Shown in pieces: positions 9,801 through 33,913 of a stretch of 33,979 bases of DNA. The notes beneath the pieces are model-generated. The model did not search any database and was not told where the DNA came from. It saw only the letters and a list, made by a program, of their open reading frames with translations. Within the stretch, counting starts at the first letter, position 1; each line of letters begins with the position of its first letter. Location: NCBI GenBank assembly GCA_003139995.1, contig PLIC01000286.1, positions 1-33,979 on the forward strand. Direction: 5' to 3'. The DNA comes from Candidatus Acidiflorens stordalenmirensis (GTDB taxonomy: Bacteria > Acidobacteriota > Terriglobia > Terriglobales > Acidobacteriaceae). The position numbers and the translations under genes are program-made.

Positions 9801-10239
9801 GCGGCAGTTCCTGGACCAGGCGATTGTTGACCACCTGGCCCAGCGTCGAGGTGTCGGTCTGCACGATGGGAGGAGTCTCGGTGACGCTCACTTCCTCGGT
9901 GATTGCGCCAACCCGAAGCGCGAAATCGAGGCGCACCGTCTGATCTACATCCACGCTGACGCCGTGGAAGACGCTCCGGCGGAAACCCGCGCTCTCGACC
10001 GCCACGCGATAGCGGCCCGGCGGCAGCAGCGCGACGGTGTAGTCGCCGTCTTCATTGGTCTCCGCATCGCGGGTGGCGTTGGTCCCCTCGTTGCGCACAA
10101 TCACCCGTGCCTTTGGGACCACCGCACCGGAGGGGTCTGTTATTGTTCCGGTGATCGTGCCGGTGGGACCGCTGGCAAAGAGTGGCGACGCGACCAAAAG
10201 TATCAATAAACAAGCGAGTTGCAACCATCCTCGAGCCAT
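6862..10239 (-). CDS. TonB-dependent receptor, Oar-like, with carboxypeptidase-regulatory domain
   Basis: The 1125-residue outer-membrane protein has a signal peptide (LACLLILLVASPLFA), then an Ig-like carboxypeptidase-regulatory domain at about residues 27-110 (GTITDPSGAVVPKARVIV, GDYTVALLPPGRYRV). A plug domain at about 120-240 contains LNERNFLSF, NNFLLDGVDNNDP, IQEFKVQSSNYSAEFG and KSGTNQFHGSLFEFFRNR. A long beta-barrel ends in KYVF, the aromatic C-terminus used by barrel insertion machinery. The size and architecture match the large Oar-like receptors that are expanded in Acidobacteriota and are thought to import polymer fragments. The start is supported by AGGGGAG at 10247-10253, seven bases upstream. 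The ligand is unknown, and no SusD-like partner is nearby. Confidence 0.92.
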   Translation of the reverse strand: MARGWLQLACLLILLVASPLFASGPTGTITGTITDPSGAVVPKARVIVRNEGTNATRDAETNEDGDYTVALLPPGRYRVAVESAGFRRSVFHGVSVDVDQTVRLDFALRVGAITEEVSVTETPPIVQTDTSTLGQVVNNRLVQELPLNERNFLSFALLVPGSQLPAEGSENSTQGGALSVNGAREQSNNFLLDGVDNNDPYINQYVALPSIDAIQEFKVQSSNYSAEFGHAGGAQVNVILKSGTNQFHGSLFEFFRNRQMDAKNYFDFPNCTANSVPGTCGDIPRFDRNQFGGTLGGPLRKDKTFFFLAYEGLRLRQATTREATVPTAAQWQAAAGLSEELFGCPLNPSCQIGQNVFNLYPTANVGSDLANSNTFLSAPVIRNTVNLVSAKVDQHFSATDTVSAHYSLAEESLFSPFDPVNAFTSLPGYGSFTLNHGQNAGLEWTRVFRSTVVNEFRLGFIRMRANVLQQNHGDDIEAQLGFPDVLTNPVDLGAPNINLIGFDGIGEPVNYPQDRHDTTLQVSDNVAWTVGRNQFKIGADFRHVRIDDYLDFLARGDWFFLGQTVAGILAQPPVNDPTACSGAPGDPYLPVTCSLAQLLAGVPDYALAVSGNTYNSLRSHGVSAYLQDDIHVIPRFLLNVGLRYEFNSPPVEALNRFSVPDLVPCPEPCSATPQFTVAGTNGIPRATYNPTYRDIAPRIGIAWRPLKSERWVVRSAYGIFYDVSISQINILPRINPPFYNLAAYFQTGACPGVLQGLCTVQDILSQTGQQSGVVQGQMISPKFRDGYMQQWNADLQYEVGPNWMIDLAYIGSKGTHLANVIDQNQSNPLTGPPYGQFSSVLFVESNASSSYQSMQFRSERRLSHGLDFLAAYTYSKSIDDISSIFGGSAGSGLPQNSQNLSGDRGLSDFNAAHRASLSFVYDLPFRRMWAQGPGWSRRLADNWQAGGILTAQTGSPFTVVLAGSPAASAAAFGNPERPDLVGDPFQAGPVAANPTCQAPAQVGTPQNWFNQCAFAEPAAEPFGPAFGTEGRNILTGPGFTNLDFSLAKTIPLRAESHRLQFRGEFFNLLNHPNFDIPNHTFDQPPCPSPNGNQLCTAGNFGSILSANAYSNKPPRQIQLSAKYVF

Positions 10240-11548: not shown

Positions 11549-14500
11549 ATGATGCGAATCTGCTCCGTTCGTTCCTCCAAGCCCTCGCTTGTCATTGTCC
11601 TCTTAACTCTGCTTGTCGTTGCCTGCTGCGCGGCGGCGGCGCAGGATGCCAGTGTTTCGTCCGGCGCCGCGACACCGCGGCTACTCATCACGCAACCAGT
11701 CGACGCGGCACAGTTCACGGTTCTCAAGGGCAACACGCATCCTTTGGCGCGCCCGGAGTTCGACCAAGGATTAGCGCCCGGCAGCCTGCCCATGCAACGC
11801 ATGCTATTGGTGCTGAAGCGCAGCCCCGAACAGGAATCCGCGTTCCGCAAGCTGCTCGACGACCAGCAGGACAAGGCTTCCCCCAACTACCACAAGTGGC
11901 TCACCCCCGAGCAGTTCGGCAAGCAATTCGGCCCCGCCGACAGCGACCTACAGACCATCACGGCGTGGCTGCAATCCCAGGGGTTCCAGGTTGCAGTTCC
12001 CTCCAAAGGCCGAACCGTGATCGAGTTCTCCGGTTCCGCCAGCCAAGTACGGGCAGCGTTCCACACCACGATTCACAAATATATCGTCAACGGCGAACAG
12101 CACTGGGCGAATGCCAGCGACCCGCAGATCCCAGCGGCGTTGACGCCAGCAATAGCTGGCATTGATTCCCTTTACGACTTCCGCAAGAAGGCAATGAACA
12201 ACTATGTGGGCCAGTACTCCGAGAAAACGAAGCAGTTGACGAGGGCGAAACCGGACTTCACCTATGTCTGCGGCAACGGTCAGGAGTGCTACGGAGTTGT
12301 GCCGTATGACTTCGCTACGATCTACGATGTCCTGCCCCTATGGAACAGCGGGATTAATGGCACAGGTCAAACCATCGCGATTGTCGCCCGAACCAACATC
12401 AACCCCCAGGATGCGACCGACTTTTGGCAGCTTTTCGGTGTTACTGTTCCCGCTAACAAGCTCAACATCATCCTCAACGGTGTCGACCCGGGGATCAATG
12501 GCGACGAAGCGGAGGCCGATATTGACGTGCAATGGTCAGGCGCAGTTGCGCCGCAGGCGACGATTGATTTCGTGACTTCACAATCGACCGAGGCCACCGA
12601 CGGAGTCGATCTCTCCGCGCTCTACATCATCGACAACAATCTTGCCCCCGTCATGAGCGAGAGTTACGGCGAATGCGAACTCGGCCTCGGCACTGCCGGG
12701 AACCAGTTTTATTACGTTCTTTGGGAGCAGGCTGCGGCGCAGGGGATCAGCGCCTTCGTTTCCTCGGGCGACAACGGTGCTGCCGGCTGCGACGATCCCA
12801 GCGGCCCCGCGAAATACGGGTTGAATGTGAACGGACTCGCTTCCACCCCTTTCAACGCCGCCGTGGGTGGAACCGACTTCAACCAGTACATGACTTGGAC
12901 GACCTACTGGAATTCGACCAACAACCCCACCACACAGGAATCTGCCAAGGGGTACATTCCGGAAACCACATGGAATGATTCCTGCACCAATGGCCTGGCC
13001 ATCACGCTGGGGTATGGCACAACTGCGGAACAAGCCTGCAACAACCCGAACTTGATTGCGAAGGGTAGTCTAAACTCTACCGGCGGCAGTGGCGGCCCGA
13101 GTAATTGCGTTGTGAACAGCCAAACCGTAGGGAGTTGCACCCAGGGCTACGCCAAGCCTTCGTGGCAAAGCGGCGCTGGAGTTCCTAACGATAGCCGGCG
13201 CGACCTGCCCGATATTTCGCTCTTCGCTAGCAACGGCTTTCTGGGCAGTTTCTACGTAATTTGCCAGCAGGACCAGACCGGCGGCGTTTGCGACGTGAAC
13301 GATTTTGTCGGATACGGCGGAACCTCCGTCGCATCGCCCTCCTTCGCCGGAATCATGTCTTTGGTCAACCAGAAGATCGGCGAACCGCAGGGCGTTCCTG
13401 GCTTTGTCCTGTACAAATTGGCGACTAAGCAGGCGAACGCGTTTCGCGATGTCCCTCCTGGTTCAACCATTGCTATGCCCTGTGACAGTGGCAGCCCCAA
13501 TTGCACGGTCTCGAACGCAGGCGATTCCTACGGTGTGCTATCCGGCTACAACACCGGCTCGGCGTACGACTTGGCCACCGGCCTGGGATCGGTGGACGCT
13601 GCTAACTTGGTGAATGACTGGAGCGAGGTCACCTTTACCCCCACGTCCACCACCTTGCAGTTGAAGTCTGGCAATCCCGTAAACGTGAAGCATGGGACGG
13701 CCGTCCCCGTAAACATCAGCGTGGGTCCAAGCGCCGCTACTGGCGTGGCTTCCCTCCTCGTGAGCACGGGCTCTGGAACGACCACTGGTCAAGCCATCGA
13801 TGGCTTCACGTTGACCGGAGGATCGGTTACCGGATCAACCAGCCTTCTGCCAGGCGGCACCTACGACGTGATTGCGCATTATGGGGGCGACGGAACCTAC
13901 GGCGGCAGCTATTCCGCTCCGGTAAGCGTCACCGTCAGCAAAGAAAACAGCACACTCAACCTGCCCGGTGTTCTCCTCGCGACCGGCCCCGGGGGTATTG
14001 TTACCACCGTCGCCTACGATTGGGAATACTGGGTGCAGGTCAATTTAGAGAATTCCCAAGGAGCTTCCTGCAATCCAGCGCCGTTCGGCGAAATCGCCTG
14101 TCCCACTGGAAGCATCGTCCTTACAGATAATGGCAATCCATTCGGAACTGGTACCTACACATTGAACAACCAGGGTTTCACGACAACCAGCGGCCAGTTG
14201 GTCGCTCTCACTGCCGGCACGCATACGTTGGCCGCGCAATACAGCGGAGACAACAACTATAACGCGAGTTCGGCGTCAGTCGTCATCACGGTGACCAAAG
14301 CATCCTCGCAAACTCTGCCCGTTGTCGAACAGGGCACTAACTTCACCCAGCCGGTTACGCTCAGCACATTGGTTTGGGATCCCAACGGATTGTCATATGA
14401 CGCTATCCCCACTGGAACAGTCACGTTTTATTCGAATGGCACAACTATCCCCGGCACTGTAACGTACGGCAATGGAGGCATTTACCCCATCGCCGCAAGC

Positions 14501-15694
14501 CTGACAACAACCTTTTCTGCGCCGGGGACCTACACTGTTACCGCTGCTTACAACGGAGATCAAAACTACCAGACATCCACATCTCCCTCATCCACTCTCA
14601 CACTCTATTATCCTCAACCAACTGTCTCGGTGACACCAGCCAGCCAGACCGTCTCTTCAGGCGGCACCGCTACACTAACGGCTCTGGTTGACACGGCAAA
14701 CCACACGACCTATCCGACCGGACAGGTAACTTTTTTCAACACCGCGAACAATCTGTATGTCTACGGCCCAGCTGCCTGCGCCAACGCGAAGGACAGCAGC
14801 GGCAACTATGCATGTCAGGTAACAGCAACTTTTACAGTGCCATCTTCTGAAATGGTCTTAGCCCAGTACAGCGGAGACAACAGTTACCCCTCGTCCTATT
14901 CGCCAGCTGTCAGCATCAACGTTCCCGATTTCTCCATCGCGCCGGGCTCGAGCCAGTTCACCGTCACAGCTGGCCAGTCGGTAAATGTGCCCATCAACAT
15001 TACTGCCCTTTCCGGATTCAACGGAACGGTCACTAACTTCGCATGCCCGGCGGGCCTTCCCGCGGAGACAACCTGCAGCTTCAATCCGGCTCAGGTTACA
15101 GGCAGCGGCACAACCACACTTACCATCAGCACAACTCCTCTTGGACAAGCCCGAAAGCGCGCGAGCGCCGCGAATCGCTCAAATTGGTGGGCGGCGACTG
15201 GTGGAGCGCTTCTGGTCGGGATATGCCTGATCGGTGCACCCATATCAAGGCGCCAGCGGAGCAGCCTGCTTGCGTTGGTGGTTTTTGCCTTCTTCATGAC
15301 TCTCCCTGGTTGCGGCGGTGGAAGCTCCAGCAACCCGGTTCCCTCGATCACTTCACTGTCTCCCACCTCAGTCGCGGCTGGCTCCGCGGCCCAGACGCTC
15401 ACCGTAAATGGTTCGGGATTCATGTCCGCCTCCACCGTCACCCTCAACGGTGCTGCTCATGCTTCGAGCTTCGTCAGCGCGAGCCAGCTCTCGGTTCCAC
15501 TATCCACCAACGATATGGCTACCACTGGCGCCTTCCCGGTGGTTGTCACCAATCCTGCTCCTGGTGGAGGCTCCTCGAGTAGCGTCAATTTCAGCGTCGT
15601 AACCGGAACGCCGACCGGCGCCTTCAACATCACGGTGGCGGCCAGCAGCGGCTCTCTCACACACAACACCACTTTTGCTCTCGTTGTGCAGTAG
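11549..15694 (+). CDS. S53 family (sedolisin) protease with Ig-like repeats and C-terminal TIG domain
   Basis: The 1381-residue exported protease has a signal peptide (residues 1-32), then a pro-kumamolisin activation domain at about 50-190 (SPNYHKWLTPEQFGKQFGP). The catalytic domain spans about 225-690 and shows the sedolisin triad: E322 and D326 in EADIDVQWS, and S593 in GGTSVASPSFAG, with the oxyanion Asp D408 in SSGDNGAAGCD. Four Ig-like repeats follow, each with a YxGDxxY signature (HYGGDGTY, QYSGDNNY, AYNGDQNY, QYSGDNSY). After a further beta domain come two hydrophobic stretches near 1214-1230 and 1238-1255, the second ending LPGCGGGSSS, and then a TIG/IPT-like domain to the end. Such enzymes self-activate at acid pH, fitting an acidophilic soil lifestyle. 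The start is supported by AAAGGTG six bases upstream. Confidence 0.92.
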   Translation: MMRICSVRSSKPSLVIVLLTLLVVACCAAAAQDASVSSGAATPRLLITQPVDAAQFTVLKGNTHPLARPEFDQGLAPGSLPMQRMLLVLKRSPEQESAFRKLLDDQQDKASPNYHKWLTPEQFGKQFGPADSDLQTITAWLQSQGFQVAVPSKGRTVIEFSGSASQVRAAFHTTIHKYIVNGEQHWANASDPQIPAALTPAIAGIDSLYDFRKKAMNNYVGQYSEKTKQLTRAKPDFTYVCGNGQECYGVVPYDFATIYDVLPLWNSGINGTGQTIAIVARTNINPQDATDFWQLFGVTVPANKLNIILNGVDPGINGDEAEADIDVQWSGAVAPQATIDFVTSQSTEATDGVDLSALYIIDNNLAPVMSESYGECELGLGTAGNQFYYVLWEQAAAQGISAFVSSGDNGAAGCDDPSGPAKYGLNVNGLASTPFNAAVGGTDFNQYMTWTTYWNSTNNPTTQESAKGYIPETTWNDSCTNGLAITLGYGTTAEQACNNPNLIAKGSLNSTGGSGGPSNCVVNSQTVGSCTQGYAKPSWQSGAGVPNDSRRDLPDISLFASNGFLGSFYVICQQDQTGGVCDVNDFVGYGGTSVASPSFAGIMSLVNQKIGEPQGVPGFVLYKLATKQANAFRDVPPGSTIAMPCDSGSPNCTVSNAGDSYGVLSGYNTGSAYDLATGLGSVDAANLVNDWSEVTFTPTSTTLQLKSGNPVNVKHGTAVPVNISVGPSAATGVASLLVSTGSGTTTGQAIDGFTLTGGSVTGSTSLLPGGTYDVIAHYGGDGTYGGSYSAPVSVTVSKENSTLNLPGVLLATGPGGIVTTVAYDWEYWVQVNLENSQGASCNPAPFGEIACPTGSIVLTDNGNPFGTGTYTLNNQGFTTTSGQLVALTAGTHTLAAQYSGDNNYNASSASVVITVTKASSQTLPVVEQGTNFTQPVTLSTLVWDPNGLSYDAIPTGTVTFYSNGTTIPGTVTYGNGGIYPIAASLTTTFSAPGTYTVTAAYNGDQNYQTSTSPSSTLTLYYPQPTVSVTPASQTVSSGGTATLTALVDTANHTTYPTGQVTFFNTANNLYVYGPAACANAKDSSGNYACQVTATFTVPSSEMVLAQYSGDNSYPSSYSPAVSINVPDFSIAPGSSQFTVTAGQSVNVPINITALSGFNGTVTNFACPAGLPAETTCSFNPAQVTGSGTTTLTISTTPLGQARKRASAANRSNWWAATGGALLVGICLIGAPISRRQRSSLLALVVFAFFMTLPGCGGGSSSNPVPSITSLSPTSVAAGSAAQTLTVNGSGFMSASTVTLNGAAHASSFVSASQLSVPLSTNDMATTGAFPVVVTNPAPGGGSSSSVNFSVVTGTPTGAFNITVAASSGSLTHNTTFALVVQ

Positions 15695-23665: not shown

Positions 23666-24070
23666 TTAACACTGCTTTTCGTCCACTAAGTGAGCCTTGA
23701 GCTTCCGGCCCTTCGGTGTTCTCAGCGTGAGACTCTTGCCCTTGAGTACAAACTCGACATCCTTGTCCTTCGCAGAAAACAGATCGTCAATCTCATCGAG
23801 AACAGGTGTTTCGTACTCGCTACAGTATGTTTGGCCGGAAGCCCGAACCGCAAAATAAAGCAGGTAGTAGTGGATTCGCGGATAGCGGCTGAAAAAGTAC
23901 GGATTACGCAGGACCTTTCGTACGCTGAGAACTTTGCCGATCTGCGGGGATTCACTTGACGAAGCAGGCGGAGGTTCTGTGCCCTGTGCGTAAGCGATCG
24001 CCACCAGGAAAACACCTGTGACAAGCACAACAGCTAAGACCCCCTGCCCCAACTCCTGATGAAATGCCAT
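23666..24070 (-). CDS. Exported protein of unknown function
   Basis: The 134-residue protein has an N-terminal signal or anchor segment (VLAVVLVTGVFLVAIAYAQ), a Pro/Ser linker, and a small domain with YFFSRYPRIHYYLLYFAV, GQTYCSEYETPVLDEIDDL and a Lys-rich beta-like end (KGKSLTLRTPKGRKLKAHLV). I choose the ATG at 24070; a TTG at 24106 in the same frame would bury the signal peptide. No strong ribosome-binding site is visible for either. It is the gene downstream of the two-component system on the same strand, about 65 nt away, so it could be co-transcribed. The family is not recognised. Confidence 0.6.
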   Translation of the reverse strand: MAFHQELGQGVLAVVLVTGVFLVAIAYAQGTEPPPASSSESPQIGKVLSVRKVLRNPYFFSRYPRIHYYLLYFAVRASGQTYCSEYETPVLDEIDDLFSAKDKDVEFVLKGKSLTLRTPKGRKLKAHLVDEKQC

Positions 24071-24136
24071 GCTCAGTATTCTCTTGATATTCCAACAATT
24101 CCGCAAGATTCGACAGTAACATTTACAAGTGTTTTT

Positions 24137-24793
24137 CTAGATCTGATCTCGATGCTGCTCTAAAACGATGCGCACTAATTGACTCCGCGTCCGGACACCA
24201 GTCTTGGAAAAGAGCTGCTGAAGAGCGGCTTTGACCGAACTCTCCGACACTCCGATGCGCGCCGCAATTTCTTTGTTTGCAAGGCCCTCGAATACATACG
24301 AAAGCACTTGCTGTTCTCGTTCCGTGAATCGTCTGCTTCGGGTTTCCCCCGGCACTGCTGCCTCGCTATTGAGGGCGGTTTGCAGCTGATCCCGGTCCAG
24401 CCACACCTTGCCAGCCATTACGTCACGAATTGCCTGTGCCAGCAATGCGGCAGAGTCGTGTTTTCGAAAAACTCCAGAAATGCCGGAACGGATCAGCTCC
24501 GCAGCCACCCCCGCATCCACCCCTGCAGTTACAACGAGGACCTTTCCCTGGAATCCCTCTTCCTTTGCCAATCGGAGGAACTGCCGGCCATCGCTCTCGC
24601 CAAGATCGAAATCAAGGAGCACGACATCGATCGCCTTTCGCCGCAGAATCTGCAGAGCCTCTCCAATTGTGCCGCAGTGAGCAGCAACCTCGAACCCGGG
24701 CTCCGCAGCGAGGAGCCGACTTGCACTCTCTCGAAACAACGTGTGATCGTCTAACAACAAAAGGTGGACGGTGCTCGCCGCAGTTTCAGGCAT
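24137..24793 (-). CDS. NarL/LuxR-family response regulator
   Basis: The 218-residue DNA-binding response regulator has an N-terminal receiver domain with acidic pocket D15-D16 and phosphoacceptor D61 (VVLLDFDLGESDG). The C-terminal LuxR-type helix-turn-helix lies at about 155-215 (FTEREQQVLSYVFEGLANKE, IGVSESSVKAALQQLF). The ATG at 24793 is preferred: GAGGAGG lies six bases upstream inside the kinase gene, and ATGCCTGA overlaps the kinase stop by 8 nt, implying translational coupling. A longer in-frame start at 24817 has no such support. As partner of the adjacent kinase, it is the prime candidate for binding the GAAAGATAG repeats around 26.2, 28.3 and 29.9 kb, which is an inference. Confidence 0.9.
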   Translation of the reverse strand: MPETAASTVHLLLLDDHTLFRESASRLLAAEPGFEVAAHCGTIGEALQILRRKAIDVVLLDFDLGESDGRQFLRLAKEEGFQGKVLVVTAGVDAGVAAELIRSGISGVFRKHDSAALLAQAIRDVMAGKVWLDRDQLQTALNSEAAVPGETRSRRFTEREQQVLSYVFEGLANKEIAARIGVSESSVKAALQQLFSKTGVRTRSQLVRIVLEQHRDQI

Positions 24794-26189
24794 TTGCCGC
24801 CTCCTCCTCTCCGACACCTAGGGGCAAGACCACAGCGAAGCAGCAACCTTCCGATCTCGGCTCGTAAGAAAGTTCCCCCCCGAAGCTGCGCATAATCGCC
24901 CTGGAAACGTAGAGCCCGAGACCGCTGGACTTGGCGCCGCTCTGGAACGGCCGGAACAGGTTTTCTGGCGAAGCGACTCCCGTCCCTGTATCCTCGAATC
25001 GAATTACGACAGTCCCGTCCTCCTCTCGCGCCGCAATTCGAAGTTGCTTCACCCCGGTGGACGCCATGGCCCGGCGGCTATTCTTCGCCAGGTTTAAGAA
25101 AACCTGAATGAGTCCGTACCGGTCAGCCCAAACCAATGGCAATGATTCCTGAACATCCCATTGCACTTTGATATCGGACTCGTGATAGGCGGTTTCGATC
25201 AGGATTCGCAATTCGTCCAGTACAGACGTAAGTTCAACCACCTCACCATTCTGAGCTGTGGTGGAACCCAATTCCAATGCCGACACTCTTTCCAGGCTCT
25301 GGATCAAGTTCCCCAAGGCCTCAAAGTCCTCGTTCGACTCAAGCTCCTTAACTCGGGAGAGGTTCTTATGCACGACAAGCACTGCACCGCAGAGGTTCCG
25401 AATTTCATGGGCCACAGCGCTCATCAGGATTCTCGTGTTCTTCAATAGATAGTCTAGACTGAGATCCTCGCGATTCCGCAGGTCCTCAGAAAGGTCCACA
25501 ATGATGGCCGCCAAGCGCGGGCCCGATATCGTGCCGTAGGTCGAAAACCAAACACCGGCCAGAAAGACTTCCCCATCGCTCCTTTTCCCTGTGCACTGCA
25601 GAGTGGTCCGGAATACTCGTGGCTGTTGAGTCTTGAGAATCGTCTGCAAAGCTGGGAGATAAGAGTTGATTCCCTGGTCTTGCAAAGGCTTCCCTTCAAG
25701 AGCGAGCAAGTGTTGAGCTGCTTCATTTGCCAACAAGACGCTGCCGCCCGAGTCAATCGTGACAATCGCAGCTGGACTGCTTTCGACGAGGGAACGCAAT
25801 TGCTCCTCGGCGTCCTCGCGTAGCTTGATCTGCCCTTCGAGTTCTTCGACGTGCGTTATCGCAATTCGGCGATTGCGGATCAACTCTGAAATAAACAGTC
25901 CCGTACCGACAAATCCTGCTGAGCTAAACAGCAAGCGAAGCACCGCTTCATTTTCTGGCAAATTGCTGAACGCTTCCTGAAGAACTGCACAAACCAGTGC
26001 AACCCCCACAATCTGAGTCCTTGACAGGAACCCCCCGAGAATCATGATGGGAAATAGGTAAAGAAATCCCAGCGAGATGTAGGGCTTCGTCGCCCAGTCG
26101 ACCACCGCGATGGCTGATATCAAGAGACCGGCAACAACGATCAGTCTGGTGCGGTTGGCCGGTGCGTACATGGACAGTACGTCTTTCAT
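24786..26189 (-). CDS. Membrane-bound PAS histidine kinase
   Basis: The 467-residue sensor kinase has several N-terminal transmembrane segments (about residues 15-105, including LIVVAGLLISAIAVVDW and LGFLYLFPIMILGGFL). A coiled linker, a PAS domain at about 130-235 (LVESSPAAIVTIDSGGSVLL) and a HisKA helix with H261 (SAVAHEIRN) follow. The ATPase domain has an N-box variant (FLNLAKNSRRAM), G1 (FEDTGTGV) and G2 (SGLGLYVSRAIMRSFGG). There is almost no periplasmic loop, so it likely senses a membrane-embedded or cytoplasmic cue. It is read first in an operon with the regulator and is divergent from the Wzi gene. The start at 26189 has a weak ribosome-binding site; ATG 26171 is an alternative. A reverse GAAGATAG-type site lies 19 nt upstream. 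Confidence 0.9.
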   Translation of the reverse strand: MKDVLSMYAPANRTRLIVVAGLLISAIAVVDWATKPYISLGFLYLFPIMILGGFLSRTQIVGVALVCAVLQEAFSNLPENEAVLRLLFSSAGFVGTGLFISELIRNRRIAITHVEELEGQIKLREDAEEQLRSLVESSPAAIVTIDSGGSVLLANEAAQHLLALEGKPLQDQGINSYLPALQTILKTQQPRVFRTTLQCTGKRSDGEVFLAGVWFSTYGTISGPRLAAIIVDLSEDLRNREDLSLDYLLKNTRILMSAVAHEIRNLCGAVLVVHKNLSRVKELESNEDFEALGNLIQSLERVSALELGSTTAQNGEVVELTSVLDELRILIETAYHESDIKVQWDVQESLPLVWADRYGLIQVFLNLAKNSRRAMASTGVKQLRIAAREEDGTVVIRFEDTGTGVASPENLFRPFQSGAKSSGLGLYVSRAIMRSFGGELSYEPRSEGCCFAVVLPLGVGEEEAANA

Positions 26190-26207
26190 GGCTACTTTAA
26201 TGGTGCG

Positions 26208-26216
26208 CTATCTTCG
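26208..26216 (-). promoter_or_regulatory. Reverse-orientation CGAAGATAG site upstream of the kinase gene
   Basis: On the minus strand this reads CGAAGATAG, identical to the copy at 28325-28333 and matching the GAAAGATAG family found in three other clusters. It lies 19 nt before the kinase start codon, where bound regulator could control its own operon. A single copy is weak evidence on its own. Confidence 0.4.
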
Positions 26217-26246
26217 TGTGCCAAGAAAACTGCTTTCTCAAACCCT

Positions 26247-26345
26247 AGCCAAAAGATAGGCTCCCGGCTCACCAAAAGATAGTGTATGCAAAACAATCCG
26301 CGGAGAAGTGTACCCTAGCCAAACGTGCCCCAGCCGAAAGGATAC
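26247..26345 (+). promoter_or_regulatory. AAAAGATAG repeat cluster upstream of the Wzi gene
   Basis: Two exact copies of AAAAGATAG start at 26251 and 26274, 23 bp apart. A degenerate copy (CCGAAAGGATA) starts at 26334, and CCCTAGCCAAA occurs at both 26243 and 26313. The block 26247-26288 matches 28278-28319 at 35 of 42 positions. The cluster lies between the divergent kinase operon and the Wzi gene, as expected for an operator. Assignment to the adjacent response regulator is an inference. Confidence 0.65.
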
Positions 26346-26394
26346 TTTGCCCACATCAAGAAATGACATACAACCGAATCCAGAGGCGAGCTTG

Positions 26395-28182
26395 ATGTTT
26401 TCGAGGGGATTGGTCGTTTGTCTATTGGCTATAGGTATCGCAACGATCATTGCAAAATGCTACGCAGCGCCGCAGGCCGACCAGGTGGGCTCCGATGAAT
26501 CCAACCGGCAAGTGGGCAAAACCCAGAACCCGACCGGTAATAGGGCTTCGAGCGACCTTCCAGACCACACCCACAATCCCAAGGACATGGGTTCTACCTA
26601 TGTTCCGCTAGACAGTTGGATATATCCGGCTCTGGATCGCCTCGCCGCATTGGGCTATGCGGAGAGGGGATTCGAGGGTGTGCGTCCGTGGACTCGCATG
26701 CAATGCGCACGAATGATTGAGGAGGCCGAAGAGGACCTGGAAGTACTTTATCCTCTGAGTGAAGACGCAGAAGATCTGCTGAGCCGCCTCGAAGAGGAAT
26801 TTTCCTTTGAAATAGGCCTGCGAGATGGCCAGCGCAACTTAGGCGCAAGCCTTGAGTCAGCTTACGCCAGGGCTGTATCTGTCAGTGGCCCAGCCTTGAC
26901 CAACAGTTACCATTTCGGCCAAACGGTTTCTTATGACTTTGGCCGCCCATTCGAACGAGGGACTAACGGTCAGGCCGGCGGCGCCTTTCGAGCTGAAGCC
27001 GGACCCTTTGCGCTTTACGTCCGCGCCGAATATCAGCACGCGCCTTCTGCTCCCGCTCCTTCGGAGGCCGTCCTCAATGTGATCGTGCTCAAAGATGAAG
27101 TGCCCATACCTCCCGATGCCGGCGTTGACGGAATCAACGGCCGCGATTATTGGACGCTTATGTCGTCCTGAATTTGAGCCCGCTAAAGTTGAGCAACTGG
27201 CAGCTCTCGGTGGACAGGCAAAGCCATTCCTGGGGCCCCGGCCCCGGCGGCGCTTTCTTGCTGAGCGACAATGCCGAGCCTATTGGCATGGTCGATATCG
27301 TCAACCCGGAGCCCATCCGTCTGCCCTTTCTTTTGAAGTTCCTGGGGCCGGCGCGGATCGATCAATTTGTGGGAATGCTCGAAGGCCGCACGGATCATGC
27401 GCACCCCCTGGGTTTACGGCCAAAAAATCACCTTCAAGCCTTTGCCTTGCCTGGAGATCGGATACGGGCGCATCACTACAATTGGAGGCCGGGGTGGGGA
27501 CCCATTCACTTTGCACAATTTCATTCTCAGCCTTTTTGGTCAAGTGAGTCATAAGCTTGGTTCGATTCCGGGCGACAACGATGATGAGATGGATTGGACG
27601 TTTTATGTCCCGAAGGTGCGGAACTATATCGTTCTATACGGTGAAATGTACGCAGAGGACGACTTCATCGCGTGGGTGAATATCAGGGCGTCTCCATTTC
27701 GGCCGGGGATCTACATTACTCGCATTCCCGGAATCCCCAGACTCGATCTTCATATTGAAGCCGCGAACACGGAGACTCCTGGATGGCATAGTCGGATCGG
27801 CGGCAATGAGGGGCAATATATTTATTGGGACTACGACTACAAAGAAGCGGACACCGACAATGGCTTTCTGATGGGCAACACGGTTGGCCGAGACGGCAAG
27901 ACCATTCAAGGCTGGCTAACTTATTGGGCGTTGGCCAGGAATACTGTCCAACTCATGTACAAGAACAATTTTGTTGATCCCGCTTTCATTCCGGGAGGAG
28001 GCGCCTGGCAGGATTACTCTGTGCAAAATGAGTTTCATCGTCGATCGGGACTGTACGTGAAGAGCCAGCTGCAGTATGAACATATCTCGCACTATCCATT
28101 GCTCTTTAACGGACCGCAGCAAAATGTGACAGCAATTGTTGAATTGGGCTTTATGCCCAACAACAACAAAAGTAAGAAATAA
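26395..28182 (+). pseudogene. Capsule assembly Wzi-like protein, interrupted by two compensating indels
   Basis: The gene would encode an outer-membrane protein of about 595 residues of the Wzi-like capsule-assembly family (PF14052 type). It has a signal peptide (LVVCLLAIGIATIIAKCYA), then the acidobacterial-type PLDSWIYPALDRLAALGY, and later NWQLSVDRQSHSWGPGPGGA, VYGQKITFKPLPCLEIGYGR and GGDPFTLHNFI. The ATG at 26395 has AGAGG eight bases upstream. The frame is lost near 27150, where one T seems missing from a T run, giving a stop at 27169-27171. It is regained near 27405, where an extra C sits in a C run, so sequence before and after is in the same frame. As read, only the first 258 residues are made. 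A sequencing error at two homopolymers is possible. Wzi attaches capsule polysaccharide to the cell surface. Confidence 0.75.
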
Positions 28183-28277
28183 CAGACTTCCCACGTGAGC
28201 TGCGCACTTGCCTACCGAAATGTGGGGATTCCGAGTTTTCGGCGCGTGGCGCAAAAGCGAAACTTGTCAAACAAACC

Positions 28278-28333
28278 AGCCAAAAGATAGCCCCCTCGCT
28301 CACCGGAAGATAGTGTTTGAGACTCGAAGATAG
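28278..28333 (+). promoter_or_regulatory. AAGATAG repeat cluster upstream of the efflux remnant
   Basis: Three copies occur: AAAAGATAG at 28282, GGAAGATAG at 28305 and CGAAGATAG at 28325, spaced 23 and 20 bp. The first two with flanks (28278-28319) match the Wzi upstream block at 35 of 42 positions. The rest of the gap 28183-28477 shows nothing else. The cluster lies 145 nt before the adaptor gene start. Confidence 0.65.
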
Positions 28334-28477
28334 GATTCCCCCTCGCGCACAGTGGCTCGCACAATGATCACTGCCGCGTCCAGCACGGCATCTTTAGAGG
28401 CCTGAGAGGGGCGTCGAGTTGGAGCAATCGCGGCTACGCTCTAGGGCGAATCCTGGAAGCGTGACGGTCGAACGAAA

Positions 28478-28730
28478 ATGATGAAGTATCCGGTTCACAT
28501 CAGTAAGAGAGTTGCCGTTGTGTTTGTGACGGCCGCAGCGATCATTGTCGCAACGGGACTTCTGGAATCAGGCCGCAGTCGTGGTCAGGCTGCAAACGCA
28601 AATGCGCCGCAGGAATCGGGCGCAAAATCCAACACGTCCGGGTCCGAAGCGGCCTTGGACCTGTCACCCAGCCAACTGAACTCGATCAAGATCGAACCGG
28701 TGGGAAGCTACCTGTTTCCCGTTGAGAAGG
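28478..28730 (+). pseudogene. RND efflux periplasmic adaptor, N-terminal fragment
   Basis: The first 85 or so residues read like an HlyD/CusB-type membrane fusion protein. There is an N-terminal membrane anchor (VAVVFVTAAAIIVATGLLE), a low-complexity linker, and the entry to the first beta domain (LDLSPSQLNSIKIEPVGSYL, then FPVEKE). Homologues continue with a VG.IDF-type strand and a lipoyl/hairpin region, but here the frame runs into unrelated sequence and stops at 28813. At about 28728-28735 the DNA changes to outer-membrane-factor coding sequence in another frame. The adaptor is therefore truncated to about a fifth of its normal length and cannot work. Adjacent ATGs at 28478 and 28481 lack a good ribosome-binding site. 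Confidence 0.7.
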
Positions 28731-29522
28731 AAGGGGTATGCGAGCGAGCTCGACGTGGCGGCGCAGGAATCACAGCTCGCGCTTGTCGCCGCCGCCTTGC
28801 CTCCGCTGCTTAAGCAGTTGGCGCAACAACGGGACCTGCTGGCTGTGCTGTCGGGCGGGTTCCCCAGCCAGGATTTGACCGAAAAGTTTGAGCTGTCGAG
28901 TCTGCATCTGCCTCAGGAACTGCCGCTGAGCCTTCCTTCGCAACTCGTGGAGCAACGCCCGGATGTGCGCCAGGCCGAGGAGAACTTGCATTCAGCCAGC
29001 GCCCAGGTTGGAATTGCGCGTGCAAATCGCCTCCCGAACTTTGCGCTGACTGGAAATGTTGGCAGCATGGCGGTCGCCGCCAGCAATATATTCGCGGCGG
29101 GCATGGGCTTTCGGGATATAGGCGCAAGCGTCACGCAGCCCATCTTTCAAGGCGGCATCCTCCTACATCGGGAGCGCGCCGCGAGAGCCGCTTATACTCA
29201 GGCCGCCGAACAATATCGCAGCACGGTCTTAACCGCCTTTCAGAATGTCGCTGACACGCTGAATGCGCTCCAACAGGACGCGAACGCCTTGAAGGCCGCG
29301 GCTGCCGCTAAAGACGCCGCCAGCGTCACCCTCGACCTGACTAAGAAACAGCTTGAATCCGGTTACGCCAATTACCTCGCGCTCTTGAGCGCGGAACAAG
29401 CCTATCAGCAAGCCCTGATTAACTTGGTGCAGGCTCAGTCGAATCGTTATGCCGACACTGCCGCGTTGTTCCAGGCTCTTGGCGGCGGATGGTGGAACCG
29501 TCCCGACATTCCTAAGAGCTAA
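28731..29522 (+). pseudogene. RND efflux outer-membrane factor (NodT/OprM type), C-terminal fragment
   Basis: The sequence encodes about 263 residues from the C-terminal part of an outer-membrane efflux channel. It begins in the first helical hairpin (GYASELDVAAQESQLALVAA) and continues with SLPSQLVEQRPDVRQAEENL, ARANRLPNFALTGN, FQGGILLHRERAARAAYTQA and the terminal RYADTAALFQALGGGWW. The N-terminal half, including the lipoprotein signal, is missing. An in-frame TTG at 28722 lies inside the adaptor remnant and would not give an exported protein. The join to the adaptor implies loss of the adaptor's end, the whole RND pump gene and the start of this gene. The remaining frame is undamaged, so the deletion may be recent. 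Confidence 0.8.
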
Positions 29523-29524
29523 CT

Positions 29525-29857
29525 ATGAAGGCGTCACTAGTTGCAACCTGGTACTCAATGGCAACAGACCTTTTAGTGAGTACCGTCGCCATGGCACTTG
29601 GAACTTTTGTTGCGGCCTCACCCTATCGGGCGGCTAAGATTTGGGGGTCGCAACGACTCGCTAACTTAGCTCCTGAACACAGAGCTTCGTTCGTAGGCTG
29701 GTACCGCGCCTTCGGGATCCTTCTTTGTCTGGCAGGCGTGCTCCTCACGGTGGATAGCACCGTTTTTTCAAGTTGTCAGCACGAGAATTCCCATCTTCGG
29801 CCGGCGCAAGAGAACACGAATGTGTCCGCGCCACTTCAGGAATCTGCCGAAAGATAG
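29525..29857 (+). CDS. Small membrane protein downstream of efflux factor
   Basis: The 110-residue protein has hydrophobic segments at about 14-32 (DLLVSTVAMALGTFVAAS) and 61-80 (YRAFGILLCLAGVLLTVDS). Between them lies a conserved-looking loop, SPYRAAKIWGSQRLANLAP, and the C-terminus is hydrophilic. The ATG follows the outer-membrane-factor stop by only 2 nt, so it was the last gene of the efflux operon and would rely on coupled translation. Its final codons (GCC GAA AGA TAG) form the first copy of the next GAAAGATAG cluster. The family is not recognised; it could be an accessory of the efflux system. Confidence 0.65.
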   Translation: MKASLVATWYSMATDLLVSTVAMALGTFVAASPYRAAKIWGSQRLANLAPEHRASFVGWYRAFGILLCLAGVLLTVDSTVFSSCQHENSHLRPAQENTNVSAPLQESAER

Positions 29858-29898
29858 CCTTGAACGCTCGAAAGATGGCTGCCAAACTTGAAAGATAG
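29849..29898 (+). promoter_or_regulatory. GAAAGATAG repeat cluster upstream of small membrane protein gene
   Basis: Three copies occur: GAAAGATAG at 29849, GAAAGATGG at 29870 and GAAAGATAG at 29890, spaced 21 and 20 bp, all in the same orientation. The first overlaps the stop codon of the upstream gene. The last lies 38 nt before the ATG at 29937, close enough to be a promoter-proximal operator. Confidence 0.65.
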
Positions 29899-29936
29899 GG
29901 TTCTCGGCATCCGGCACTCCGGTTTACATAGATGGA

Positions 29937-30173
29937 ATGTCTGGCGATCAACCTCGATTCCTTGCCACGGCGGCATTTTCGTTCCCCTGGGACCGCTTCT
30001 TCGATCAAGGCGAGCGGCTCTTTGAGGTTGCTTTCCTTGTGCTGTGGCTCGCGTTCGTGGTCTTCCTTGCCTACGCCGCGGTACGTTTCGTCCGCGAAAA
30101 CGCCAAGAAGAAGTCAAAGAGCAAAGGGAAACGGCGTGACCGCCCAGCATCCCCAACGCGCAGTTGGAACTAG
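29937..30173 (+). CDS. Small single-pass membrane protein
   Basis: The 78-residue protein has one clear transmembrane helix (FEVAFLVLWLAFVVFLAYAA, about residues 29-48) followed by a strongly basic tail (RENAKKKSKSKGKRRDR), giving an N-out/C-in topology. No Shine-Dalgarno is visible before the ATG, so translation may be leaderless or the call may be wrong. Support comes from the good membrane topology and from the GAAAGATAG cluster directly upstream. The family is not recognised. Confidence 0.5.
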   Translation: MSGDQPRFLATAAFSFPWDRFFDQGERLFEVAFLVLWLAFVVFLAYAAVRFVRENAKKKSKSKGKRRDRPASPTRSWN

Positions 30174-30302
30174 AGGTGTGATCGTGACGCGAGAGCTAGG
30201 CGACGCTCGCCCAACTGATTCAGTAATCGAGAGGCAACGGCAACCCACGCAAGCCTAAAACTTCCTACTACTCCCTCCTCCCTTTTTCTCTTGTCTACTG
30301 CG

Positions 30303-30321
30303 ATTAACTATGGTTAACTAT
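30303..30321 (+). repeat. TTAACTAT direct repeat upstream of TonB receptor gene
   Basis: TTAACTAT occurs at 30304-30311 and again at 30314-30321, ten bases apart, with a further GGTTAAT at 30336-30342. One-helical-turn spacing about 75 nt before the receptor start suits an operator or promoter element. It is AT-rich within GC-rich DNA. Confidence 0.35.
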
Positions 30322-30397
30322 ACAACATCATCCTTGGTTAATGTCGGCGAACTGGGCTGACGTTGGCGCTTAGTGGCCAAGCGCAGTGGGGGAATAC

Positions 30398-33300
30398 ATG
30401 GCACGGGTAATTTGCTTGGATCTCATTCTGGCGGTCATCGCGTCTCTTCTTCCGGCGAAAGCACTCGCACAAGGCGAAACCACCAGTGCCATCGTCGGCG
30501 AAGTAAGGGATGCAACTAACGCAGTTGTGCCGGGCGCCATTGTGACGGTCACAAATCACGAGACCGGTCTAAAGCGTAGCGCTCACACCGATGACGCAGG
30601 CCGGTTCAATTTCCCACAGCTAAAGCCTGGTGCCTATTCGGTCAGAGCGGAAGCGCGAGGTTTCGAACCGCGGCAAAATGACAATGTCGTTTCGGGCCTG
30701 GGCCAGAAGCAAAGAGTGGATTTCACGCTTAACGTGGCGCGATCAAATGAGGTGGTTGAGGTAAACAGTGAAGCGCCACTCATCAACCCGGAAAACGCAA
30801 ACACATCTACCACTTTGAATGCGCCGGCGCTGGAGGATCTGCCCAATCCAGGTGGTGATTTAACCTACCCTCTGCAGTTTGCGCCTGGCGCCCTCATCAA
30901 CACGGCGGGCAGCAGCAACGACTTCGTCGGCGGCACAAACGGATATGGCAACGTGGAGTTTAACGGACTGCCCGCCCTCTCAAACGGTTACATCGTTGAC
31001 GGACTGGAAACGAACGACCCGCTTACTAACCTCAACAGCGGCCTTTCAACCAACCTTGTTTTGGGATTGAATTCAATTTCAGAAGTGACTGTCAACACTC
31101 TTTCCTATTCCGTGGATCAAGGGCGGTATGGAGCCTCCCAAGTCGACTACGTCACCAAGTCTGGCACGAATCTGTTTCACGGAAATCTCTATGAACTGTG
31201 GAATGGTTCGCTGCTGAATGCAGCGGACTACTTCACCAATGCGACGCCGGGGAATCACAAGCCCAGATCGACGGTCAATCATTTTGGGGGCAGTCTGGGC
31301 GGCCCAATTGTGCACGACAGACTCTTCTTTTTCTTCGACAGCGAATGGATGCGGATCGCGCTACCGATTGTTACGCCAACGATCGTTCCCACTGCGGCAT
31401 TCCAACAATACGTCTTGCAACAGCTTCCGCTGGGTCAAACAACCGGCTGCGTGGCTAGCGGGCCTAATCGGAATTGTTACCCCGCCGCGCCGCAGTTGGT
31501 CCCTTTCTATCAACAAATGTTCTCCCTCTATCGAAATACCAGCGGTACCGCCTACGCGATAGACGGTTGTCCGATCGCGGTGGGTTGCGCGAACCAGCAA
31601 AGCGTTTCGCACACCAGCGACGACCACGAGCAAGTGCAGACGGCCCGAATCGATTACAACATCAGCCCGAAGGACACCGCATGGCTTCGTTTTCAGTCGG
31701 ACACCGGTCTGCAAGCCGTGTGGACGGACCCCATCAACCCGGTGTTCAACGCGCTTTCGCCGCAGCCTCTCTGTTCTTTCGCGGCAGGACACACGCACGT
31801 CTTCTCGCAGAACCTGGTGAACTACTTCAATCCCGCATTCTCCTGGTACGAAAGCTTGTTTGGGCCAAGCAACCTTCAGAAGACACTTTCGGCGTTCCCG
31901 ATCGTGCTCGAGGGCAGCGGCGCGAACCCCTTTACGCCCATAGGAGGGCTGGACAACACCTGGATTCAAGGCAGGCGCGCATCCCGGTTCTTCATCAATG
32001 ACAACCTGTCCTGGAGCCGTGGCGCTCACGAACTGCGATTCGGAACCAATACCCGTATCTTCCGTTTGAACGACTTCGACTTCGGGGAAGGCGCGGTTTC
32101 CACCGTGACTTACGCGAACTTGCAGCAATATATCTATGGAGTAGCGAACACCGCCTTGAAGACGTTCCCTTCGAACGCAAATGAGCCCTTCAACTTTCTC
32201 AATCTCGATGTCTACGCGCAAGACACCTGGAAAGTGACTCGCAAACTGACCTGGACGTTCGGTCTGCGCGATACCTTCAACTCCAATCCGCTGAATCCGC
32301 ATGAACAGGTCGCCCGTCTTCGCGGCTCCTTCGGTTCCATCTCGCATGACGTCAATCAACCGCTGAACGCCGCTATTCAAACTCATCTCGGTAATCTGTT
32401 CTCGTCCACGCCGCTGGCCATTCTGCAACCGAGAACCGCGATTGCGTGGCAGTTCGAGCCGAAATCCGTTCTCCGCACCGGCTTTGGGATTTTCAGCGAT
32501 ATTTTGCCGGGCACTGTGGCCGACCTGATCGGCGCCAATCCTCCATACGATAAGACGTTCCAGGGAGGACTGTTCGGCACTGTGGGCCAAGCCGGATCCG
32601 CGGGCTGCGACCCGGTAGTCGGCTGCGCAGCCATCGCTCCCGCAGTGACGAACAGCGCAGTGGACGCAACCATTGCAGCGAATCAGACTTTTACTTCGGG
32701 ATTCCCCCAGGGCCAGCTCTCGTGCGCATCTCCACTGTCAAATCCGACAAGTTGCCTTCCACCGGTCGCGATCACGGCCATTCCAGATGGCAAGCTCCAC
32801 GCTCCGTACTTCATGGAGTGGAGTCTGGGCATTGAACACCAATTCGGAACGACCGCCAGCGCGCACGCGCAGTACGTCGGCACGCGCGCTGTGAACCAGC
32901 CGTACTCAACCCAAGTCAACGGCTACCAAACCGTGTGCCAGGGCTGTTTTACGCCGTTCCCTTACATGCAACCTACCGATCCACGATTCGGCGCGGTGAC
33001 GCAGTTCTCCACCGGCGCGAACAGTCACTACAACGGCCTCCAACTGACCGCGATGAAGCGGCTCGGCCATGGTTTGCAAGGACAGGTCAACTACACCTGG
33101 AGCCGTTGCATGGATACAGTCTCGAACGGAGGATTTCTGCAATTCTCCGCCGGAGGAATTCTTTCGCCTTTGCCGGGAGAGCTGGCCCGCGATTATGGTC
33201 CTTGCGACTATGACATCCGCCACAATCTCAATGCGCAGTATGTGTATCAGTTGCCGGTTCGAGTGCGTAGTCATTCTCTGGGCTACGCGCTCAACGGCTG

Positions 33301-33913
33301 GCAGATTTCCGGGACAGCGTTTTGGCACAGCGGAGTTCCGTTCTCGGTGTTGAGTTCGCCCTATTCAGCTACCAATCCAAGCACCGGGAAGGAAGAGGGA
33401 ATTGTGCAGGGCAGTGGGCCGGAGTTCGCCAGTCTTGTGCCGGGAGTGAATCCCTATTGTCGCCATTGCAGCCTGGGCGTTACCCAAGCGGGCACAATTC
33501 AGTGGCTCGATCCCGATGCGTTTGTATCGGCATTTGATACGAGTACAGGGACATGCTATAGCCTTCATGGCGGTGACAAAGACAATGCTCATACCTGCCA
33601 ATTCGGAAACCTCGGTCGCAACTCACTGCGCGGTCCCGATTTCCTCTGGAGTGACTTCTACCTGACAAAATGGTTTGCCTTGACCGAGCATGTGAAGCTG
33701 CGGTTTGAGGCCCAGTTTTTCAATGCCTTCAACCATCCGAATTTCAGCCTTCCAAGCGTGATGCAGGCCGGCATTCCGGGAAATCCTTCCACGCAGGGTG
33801 GATTTGGAGCGCTCACGTCCACAACTTCTCCGCCGACCGGCTTGCTCGGCGTTGGGTTGGGCGGCGACGGCACTCCGCGCATGATCGCATTTCAAGCGCG
33901 ACTGGAGTTCTGA
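30398..33913 (+). CDS. TonB-dependent receptor, Oar-like, with carboxypeptidase-regulatory domain
   Basis: The 1171-residue outer-membrane receptor has a signal peptide (ICLDLILAVIASLLPAKALA), then a carboxypeptidase-regulatory Ig-like domain at about 30-110 (GEVRDATNAVVPGAIVTV, GRFNFPQLKPGAYSVRAEA). A plug follows (VEFNGLPALSNGYIVDGLET, VDYVTKSGTNLFHGNLYELW), then a barrel with LGGPIVHDRLFFFFDSEWM, DNLSWSRGAHELRFGTN and FQARLEF at the C-terminus. The ATG at 30398 is preferred to the GTG at 30386 because GGGGGA lies four bases upstream. It shares architecture with the receptor at 6862-10239 but little sequence beyond the family blocks. The ligand is unknown. A TTAACTAT repeat lies in its upstream region. 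Confidence 0.92.
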   Translation: MARVICLDLILAVIASLLPAKALAQGETTSAIVGEVRDATNAVVPGAIVTVTNHETGLKRSAHTDDAGRFNFPQLKPGAYSVRAEARGFEPRQNDNVVSGLGQKQRVDFTLNVARSNEVVEVNSEAPLINPENANTSTTLNAPALEDLPNPGGDLTYPLQFAPGALINTAGSSNDFVGGTNGYGNVEFNGLPALSNGYIVDGLETNDPLTNLNSGLSTNLVLGLNSISEVTVNTLSYSVDQGRYGASQVDYVTKSGTNLFHGNLYELWNGSLLNAADYFTNATPGNHKPRSTVNHFGGSLGGPIVHDRLFFFFDSEWMRIALPIVTPTIVPTAAFQQYVLQQLPLGQTTGCVASGPNRNCYPAAPQLVPFYQQMFSLYRNTSGTAYAIDGCPIAVGCANQQSVSHTSDDHEQVQTARIDYNISPKDTAWLRFQSDTGLQAVWTDPINPVFNALSPQPLCSFAAGHTHVFSQNLVNYFNPAFSWYESLFGPSNLQKTLSAFPIVLEGSGANPFTPIGGLDNTWIQGRRASRFFINDNLSWSRGAHELRFGTNTRIFRLNDFDFGEGAVSTVTYANLQQYIYGVANTALKTFPSNANEPFNFLNLDVYAQDTWKVTRKLTWTFGLRDTFNSNPLNPHEQVARLRGSFGSISHDVNQPLNAAIQTHLGNLFSSTPLAILQPRTAIAWQFEPKSVLRTGFGIFSDILPGTVADLIGANPPYDKTFQGGLFGTVGQAGSAGCDPVVGCAAIAPAVTNSAVDATIAANQTFTSGFPQGQLSCASPLSNPTSCLPPVAITAIPDGKLHAPYFMEWSLGIEHQFGTTASAHAQYVGTRAVNQPYSTQVNGYQTVCQGCFTPFPYMQPTDPRFGAVTQFSTGANSHYNGLQLTAMKRLGHGLQGQVNYTWSRCMDTVSNGGFLQFSAGGILSPLPGELARDYGPCDYDIRHNLNAQYVYQLPVRVRSHSLGYALNGWQISGTAFWHSGVPFSVLSSPYSATNPSTGKEEGIVQGSGPEFASLVPGVNPYCRHCSLGVTQAGTIQWLDPDAFVSAFDTSTGTCYSLHGGDKDNAHTCQFGNLGRNSLRGPDFLWSDFYLTKWFALTEHVKLRFEAQFFNAFNHPNFSLPSVMQAGIPGNPSTQGGFGALTSTTSPPTGLLGVGLGGDGTPRMIAFQARLEF

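Follow-up and report, generated by a model that had tools for sequence, protein, structure and literature searches.

The contig PLIC01000286.1 of Candidatus Acidiflorens stordalenmirensis (a stretch of 33,979 nucleotides, analysed whole and called the window below) carries short direct repeats of the form VRAAGATRG, which stand in three clusters to the right of the genes for a sensor histidine kinase and a NarL/FixJ (LuxR-type) response regulator. At a probability of roughly 0.85, we read these arrays as the operator bound by the adjacent two-component regulator. Among acidobacterial relatives, the repeats are conserved in position, spacing, and orientation, co-occur with the regulator, and are associated with efflux genes. 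A sister clade, in which the same sensor is fused directly to the same DNA-binding domain, appears to have an operator of a different type.

Repeats upstream of the kinase genes

In the window, VRAAGATRG was matched 12 times against 2.89 expected, a number reached in none of 100 shuffles, and repeat pairs 19-24 base pairs (bp) apart were found five times, compared with a shuffle mean of 0.003 and a maximum of 1 in 300 shuffles. All eight same-strand copies that a sequence-only reading had assigned to three clusters were recovered at the stated positions (Table 1). The same reading had listed a degenerate copy, which exists at a corrected position, and a reverse copy next to the kinase start. 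The reverse match is present but is probably part of the kinase core promoter rather than a member of the array, since several close relatives keep this stretch as GCGCTATTTT or similar. The other three of the four minus-strand matches (GATGG forms at 14840, 29140, and 29791, absent from that reading) are probably due to chance.

The response regulator has both a receiver and a GerE-type helix-turn-helix (HTH) domain, the combination that defines NarL/FixJ membership, and its acidic pair (D15, D16), phospho-Asp (D61), and Lys (K111) are invariant across three orthologues. Its recognition helix reads SESSVKAALQQLF, with Ala189 at the position that varies in the helix alignment. The HATPase_c domain of the kinase was matched by PF02518 at 2.5e-15; no HisKA-type profile matched at E 0.001, and the AHEIRN motif was seen by eye, with H261, E262, R264, and N265 invariant in three orthologues. 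A redox or metal role for Cys199 of the PAS domain was considered and dropped, as this residue is kept in only 100 of 138 alignment rows.

Relatives were sampled in several ways. A first set of 61 genomes (60 relatives and the window's own) contained the strict pair in 8. In G032 and G028, the array separates an orthologous kinase and regulator from a divergent, intact CusA/CzcA-type efflux operon. No recognisable efflux promoter was found at the site of the pairs in G022, G013, G054, and G033. A search of genome contigs with a profile of the kinase alignment gave 77 loci from Acidobacteria, mostly of the Terriglobia type, with one from Vicinamibacteria (L054); the three weak matches L100-L102 are unrelated. 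Of 299 genomes sampled across the class, 78 had the kinase at E 1e-60. In the pooled loci, 165 of 168 sequences had a kinase-type match; removal of exact repeats left 154, and three exclusions (L096, a fragment; L099, distant; L128, without upstream DNA) left 151. These comprise 120 loci of the kinase type (including the window and five fragments), all relatives of the window kinase at 33-100% identity within Acidobacteriota, and 31 of the fused type. A held-out set of 34 later-fetched regions added 24 new ones: 18 kinase-plus-regulator, five fused, and one untyped.

A de novo count of 8-mers in the 200 bp upstream of the kinases ranked AAAGATAG first: it is present and faces away from the kinase at 75 of the 120 loci (mean 0.44 and maximum 2 over 50 shuffles) and lies on the opposite strand at five. 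AAGATAG occurs in the forward orientation in this region at 78 of the 120 (shuffles 1.6). Among the held-out regions it was found at 11 of the 18 kinase-plus-regulator loci and at none of the five fused loci or the untyped one. The motif is thus conserved upstream of orthologous regulator operons far beyond the shuffled background. Its profile reads T..CC(A/G)AAAGATAG(G/C)(C/T)T and has no inverted partner. Of 67 steps between successive AAGATA/AAGATT sites, 47 measure 20-23 bp and 12 more measure 42-47 bp, an approximately doubled spacing that looks as if one repeat copy had decayed. Copies most often lie 60-69 bp from the kinase start (32 of 116). Spacer sequences vary between copies and species, with the core and the spacing retained. 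Exact paired arrays were found in 26 of 78 kinase-positive versus 8 of 221 kinase-negative genomes (Fisher p 6e-11). Along with the covariation of helix and operator described below, these counts bear out the earlier proposal that the repeats belong with the adjacent regulator.

Several observations weigh against this assignment. The 120 loci are mutually related, and the counts represent non-independent events. AAGATAG is missing from the 200 bp upstream of 42 of them, many of which hold CGAAAGAT variants with other bases after CGAAAGAT, and from four of four held-out loci with the helix SESYVKAILQSLF; an exact pair is missing from 52 of the 78 kinase-positive genomes. On the other strand, AAGATAG is found at 9 of 120 loci, above shuffles (mean 1.12, maximum 4), an excess which is partly the kinase-proximal copy as in the window. 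Direct repeats with no inverted partner are not the commonest site type for dimers of the NarL family, and two of the three clusters in the window precede damaged genes.

Kinase loci without AAAGATAG include L053, L058, L059, L151, L293, L295, L297, and L302. The helix SESYVKAILQSLF was read in L293, L295, L297, and L302. Upstream of the kinase in L058, CGGTTATGCCATTCA-like repeats of 15 bp stand in tandem and may represent a third type of operator.

The fused sister clade and its putative operator

The fused type is found at 31 loci, where a protein of ~300 amino acids (aa) passes directly from the N-terminal sensor and PAS domain shared with the kinases into a GerE domain. All five of the fused proteins that were scanned contain PAS and GerE and gave no HATPase or Response_reg match at E 0.001: one chain holds the sensor and the DNA-binding domain, with neither kinase nor receiver. 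Their N-terminus is hydrophobic, as judged from sequence alone. A CusA/CzcA-type efflux gene lies downstream on the same strand at 20 of the 30 fused loci examined.

The fused proteins differ from the two-component regulators in the residue that follows VK in the recognition helix, a position that aligns with Asn183 of DosR. Of 111 regulators, 107 have Ala (94) or Ser (13) there; 29 of 30 fused proteins have Asn. The 200 bp upstream of the fused genes contain AAGATAG at 1 of 31 loci and the inverted repeat AATC-N4-GATT at 13 of 31 (shuffles 0.14), versus 1 of 120 kinase loci for the latter. Within 250 bp before and behind the gene, the inverted repeat was found at 20 of 29 Asn-type versus 1 of 111 kinase-type loci, a comparison of groups that are not fully alike, as the DNA behind the gene is the target promoter mainly in the fused layout. 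Where the DNA-reading helix differs, the motif is absent: AAGATAG stands upstream of none of the 29 Asn-type fused genes, which are non-independent replicates of one evolutionary change, and upstream of the only Ala-type one (L189). The five new held-out fused loci, drawn from twelve fused-like regions, all have Asn, and three of them carry the inverted repeat, which was also found at 1 of the 18 new kinase loci. Two details run counter to this pattern: six Asn-type loci carry AAGATAG behind the gene, ahead of the efflux operon, and 9 of the 29 lack the inverted repeat.

L189 is also the sole fused locus with AAAGATAG upstream (one exact copy and two variants, in 20-bp steps), and its protein retains a linker stretch missing from nine other fused proteins in its alignment. 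A sensor-region tree was built from 80 rows (all 27 usable fused proteins and every second kinase row plus named ones, with 10 long branches dropped). In it, the fused proteins formed one clade (98/92) with L189 sister to the remaining 26 (100/99). The tree of the full 138 rows likewise agreed with one change. Because L189, the earliest-branching member, keeps both Ala and AAAGATAG, the simplest reading of the order would be that fusion came first and the change of helix and operator followed. The tree shows a single such event, however, so p-values taken across sequences are no proof of a causal role of the residue in the operator change, and L189 is itself a single locus.

On balance, the family probably records a stepwise conversion of a two-component system into a predicted membrane-bound one-component regulator. 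In the first step, the membrane/PAS sensor would have been fused to the LuxR-type DNA-binding domain, with the kinase and receiver lost and the ancestral AAAGATAG operator kept, the state seen in L189. In the second step, the base-reading residue of the helix would have changed from Ala to Asn and the tandem direct repeats would have given way to the inverted repeat, which may now control both the fused gene and the efflux operon that follows.

A second response-regulator match (~40-60% identical) was noted behind the fused gene, on the opposite strand, at L072, L074, L085, L086, and L093; at most of these loci it stands ahead of the efflux operon. Six loci of the fused type (L064, L065, L067, L068, L071, and L082) have a single conserved CAAGATAG upstream of the efflux operon, perhaps as part of a promoter, perhaps as a remnant of the former operator.

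Target genes, the window copy, and other readings

A divergent open reading frame (ORF) was chosen mechanically at 111 of the 120 kinase loci, so some of these ORFs are probably not genes. Among the 73 motif-positive ones, 46 encode parts of RND efflux systems (HlyD 23, OEP 21, and pump 2, counted as different ORFs), followed by bestrophin (9), APH (3), and one each of an ammonium transporter, the Wzi-like protein of the window, and others. The 38 motif-negative ORFs include 6 efflux parts and 5 ammonium transporters; efflux parts are therefore commoner in the motif-positive group (46/73 vs 6/38, p 2e-6). Efflux control, as proposed by the sequence-only reading, is what the relatives support. 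The general capsule regulon that it also proposed fell away, with Wzi divergent at 1 of 73 loci only, the frameshifted window itself. Apart from the window, a Wzi fragment was met at L094 (G332:C74), where arrays lie ahead of an adaptor and of the Wzi fragment, beside a kinase fragment and rearranged efflux genes; in view of this locus, a lineage-specific Wzi link is possible.

Nor did a wide regulon emerge. Comparison by hand of the 40 paired sites in the 299 genomes placed 19 (in 18 genomes) at the kinase promoter and 6 at remote positions with good flanks. The remaining 15 (7 in kinase-positive and 8 in kinase-negative genomes) were close in number to the 16 given by a reversed-pattern control. 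Remote arrays in kinase-positive genomes stand ahead of an RND-type adaptor (G217) and APH genes (G105, G216, and G200); two contigs of G200 repeat one further remote site.

The bestrophin-like ORFs are divergent from the kinase at L172-L175, L179, and L182-L184, and in L172-L175 and L179 two copies of AAGATAG lie 46-47 bp apart. Within 250 bp behind the response-regulator gene, AAGATAG was found on either strand at 9 of 111 kinase-type loci (compare L045), hinting at further targets on that side.

In the window, each cluster does stand ahead of an envelope gene as first described, but the genes behind two of the three are damaged, and the window copy of the system is partly broken. The Wzi-like gene is spread over three frames. 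The adaptor frame continues to 28813, but its homology stops near 28733, and the adaptor is joined directly to the C-terminal part of the NodT-type protein. At 28731-28733, the alignment of the window to L027 jumps from 7194 to 1727 (matched L027 stretches 7277-7194 and 1727-938), leaving ~5.5 kilobases (kb) absent relative to L027: the rest of the adaptor, the RND pump, and the start of NodT. No orthologous pump was found in the window's own assembly (5.49 Mb, 92.8% complete, 313 contigs), whose best matches are 39-43% identical. The gap could be a true deletion or, with a genome in 313 contigs, an assembly fault; both are compatible with the data. Cluster 2 can be aligned with the array regions of L049 and L060.

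Control of the small membrane protein behind cluster 3, another part of the sequence-only reading, gained support from L045, where exact repeats at 4089 and 4130 with one variant between them precede a 77-aa homologue of the protein at 29937. A class-wide search with the 78-aa protein itself gave only the window as a confident match, the other four of five matches having E 0.003-0.008. The ORF at 29525-29857 runs into cluster 3, so that its stop codon and the first repeat overlap. With a -10-like position after this cluster (window 29890-29937), transcription would start near the ATG at 29937, and the mRNA of the small membrane protein may thus lack a leader. The region is flanked by two large Oar-like TonB-type receptors (CarboxypepD_reg and OMP_b-brl_4; 6862-10239 and 30386-33913), between which lies a kumamolisin-like protein at 11549-15694.

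Table 1. Two-component genes, repeats, and neighbouring genes in the window
Feature	Position	Strand	Details
NarL/FixJ (LuxR-type) response regulator, 218 aa	24137..24793	-	Pfam Response_reg PF00072 3e-15, GerE PF00196 1.3e-13
Sensor histidine kinase, 467 aa	24786..26189	-	hydrophobic N-terminus, PAS domain, His261 (AHEIRN), HATPase_c
Reverse match CGAAGATAG	26208..26216	-	GCGCTATTTT-like in several relatives
Cluster 1 operator repeats (putative)	26251-26259 and 26274-26282	+	62 and 85 bp upstream of kinase start; widely conserved position
Degenerate repeat CCGAAAGGATAC	26334..26345	+	AAAGGATAC at 26337
Wzi-like capsule assembly gene, frameshifted	26395..28182	+	frames 26395-27171, middle frame from 27150, 27367-28182
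Cluster 2 operator repeats (putative) at 28282, 28305, 28325	28282..28333	+	ahead of efflux adaptor remnant
RND periplasmic adaptor, N-terminal part	28478..28733	+	86% identical to L049 over residues 1-87
NodT-type outer-membrane efflux protein, C-terminal part	28731..29522	+	NodT TIGR01845 3.2e-73
Small membrane-like protein, 110 aa	29525..29857	+	partial homologue behind L081 RND gene, 43% over 67 aa
Cluster 3 operator repeats (putative) at 29849, 29870, 29890	29849..29898	+	similar arrangement in L045
Small membrane-like protein, 78 aa, basic C-terminus	29937..30173	+	L045 homologue 30% identity, E 4.6e-5

Given this damage, the clusters of the window could be decaying leftovers with nothing regulated there any more, the pump being gone and wzi frameshifted; we regard this as a serious possibility, though not the likelier one. 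The missing ~5.5 kb and the lack of an orthologous pump elsewhere in the genome speak for it. On the other hand, the kinase and regulator genes are both open and 83% and 79% identical to their L017 counterparts, cluster 3 and the small protein behind it appear intact with a counterpart in L045, and the gap itself may be an assembly fault.

As to how the operator would work, the domains suggest phosphotransfer from a membrane-bound PAS histidine kinase to its NarL-type response regulator, and we infer that binding depends on this phosphorylation and leads to activation. The regulator would bind tandem direct repeats spaced by about two helical turns, on the same face of the helix. In 12 of 78 sequences (1.08 expected), the start of a TANNNT hexamer lies 31 bp beyond the last repeat; the last-repeat finder behind this count deals only crudely with loci whose middle repeat is missing or variant (L028, L029, and L031, for example, end too early). 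This distance would place the last repeat near -41 from the transcription start. Since the last repeat would end near the -35 of the divergent promoter, the regulator is most likely a class II activator of the divergent RND efflux operon, or, in some lineages, of a bestrophin-like channel or an APH-family gene, with a probable effect on its own operon as well. In the window, it would have such arrays in three places, ahead of the Wzi-like gene, the efflux adaptor, and the small membrane protein. That the regulator instead binds the arrays as a repressor of the divergent operon and is released on signalling appears unlikely. A site near -35 could also block polymerase and some loci retain single repeats, but a last repeat 31 bp from the -10-like hexamer leaves the -10 free and is at the classic class II activator distance, and NarL/FixJ regulators are mostly activators.

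We find it very unlikely that another, more global regulator binds the repeats and controls the efflux promoters, with the two-component system merely a neighbour. The pairs in 8 of 221 kinase-negative genomes and the few arrays distant from the kinase would fit such a regulator. Six of these eight pairs were inspected (all but those of G029 and G101), and four lie inside mechanically called reading frames, the one in G033 lies between frames, and the one in G332 lies beside the kinase fragment of L094. Moreover, the number of off-locus pairs is about that of the reversed-pattern background, and the operator type tracks the regulator's own recognition helix.

Finally, a simple-sequence or mobile-repeat artefact, suggested by the shortness of the repeated unit and by a tandem run of AAAGATAG in G007 that is minisatellite-like and was set aside as unrelated to the arrays, can practically be dismissed, as spacers differ while core and spacing persist across many genera, an Rfam scan of 24000-30500 gave no match, and single CCRAAAGATAG sites elsewhere in the window's genome are near the control (8 vs 5). 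The strict pair pattern GAAAGATAG...AAAGATAG had no match in that genome because the copies differ at their first base, and a looser pattern was then used. In the 5.49 Mb scan, the rest of the genome held no second array of the window's shape; the one other pair under the loose pattern (G000:C26) was judged to be background from its 16-bp step and poor flanks.

Known systems and biological meaning

In a literature search conducted mainly at the abstract level, we found no direct description of this regulator/operator system. Control of a heavy-metal RND operon by a two-component system is known from CusS/CusR and CusCFBA, and many relatives here face CusA/CzcA-type operons. CusR, however, is an OmpR-type regulator, whereas the regulator here is of the NarL type, and in other lineages the system faces different RND pumps, channels, or APH genes. 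Another related system is EvgS/EvgA of E. coli, a bacterium of another phylum, with a PAS-containing kinase and a NarL-type regulator that controls efflux pumps; EvgA is LuxR-type. We know of no tandem AAAGATAG operator for EvgS/EvgA, and the window regulator scores 48.2 bits against an EvgA cutoff of 251 bits. For EvgS, the consulted part of the source describes a cytoplasmic PAS domain, effects on efflux genes, and a large periplasmic domain that sets it apart (PMC5573083).

The DNA-binding domains of DosR/DevR and NarL are among the nearest solved structures to the window regulator. Their operators are inverted repeats, whereas the window family uses direct repeats. Asn183 of DosR, which aligns with Ala189 of the window regulator and with the Asn of the fused clade, is one of three base-contacting residues named in the consulted part of the source (PMC4082495).

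The fused proteins resemble EL222 and other PAS-LuxR regulators in combining an N-terminal PAS domain and a C-terminal LuxR HTH in one protein. To our knowledge, EL222 has no membrane-type N-terminus. This one-component architecture is common (over 6000 in SMART), and the consulted part of the same source describes no same-family two-component parent for EL222 (PMC13060918). In Neisseria Rsp and other hybrid transmembrane regulators, a kinase sensor is joined to the DNA-binding domain of its regulator, and, in the portion of that source consulted, the origin of membrane-bound transcription regulators from two-component systems is raised as a possibility rather than a demonstrated route (PMC10269533). 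The Rsp case involves PilS/PilR, whereas the clade described here has a NarL-type domain, spans several genera, and shows an operator change together with a possible intermediate form.

The pairing of regulator and operator is not a local curiosity but recurs widely in soil Acidobacteria, mostly ahead of efflux pumps. It provides a regulator-operator assignment for a large group of soil bacteria that are abundant and hardly cultured, in which efflux control would become predictable from sequence alone. The larger interest lies in the second, fused form of the family. Parent, apparent intermediate, and derived forms coexist, each with its own operator, which makes the order of the steps and the role of one recognition-helix residue directly testable.

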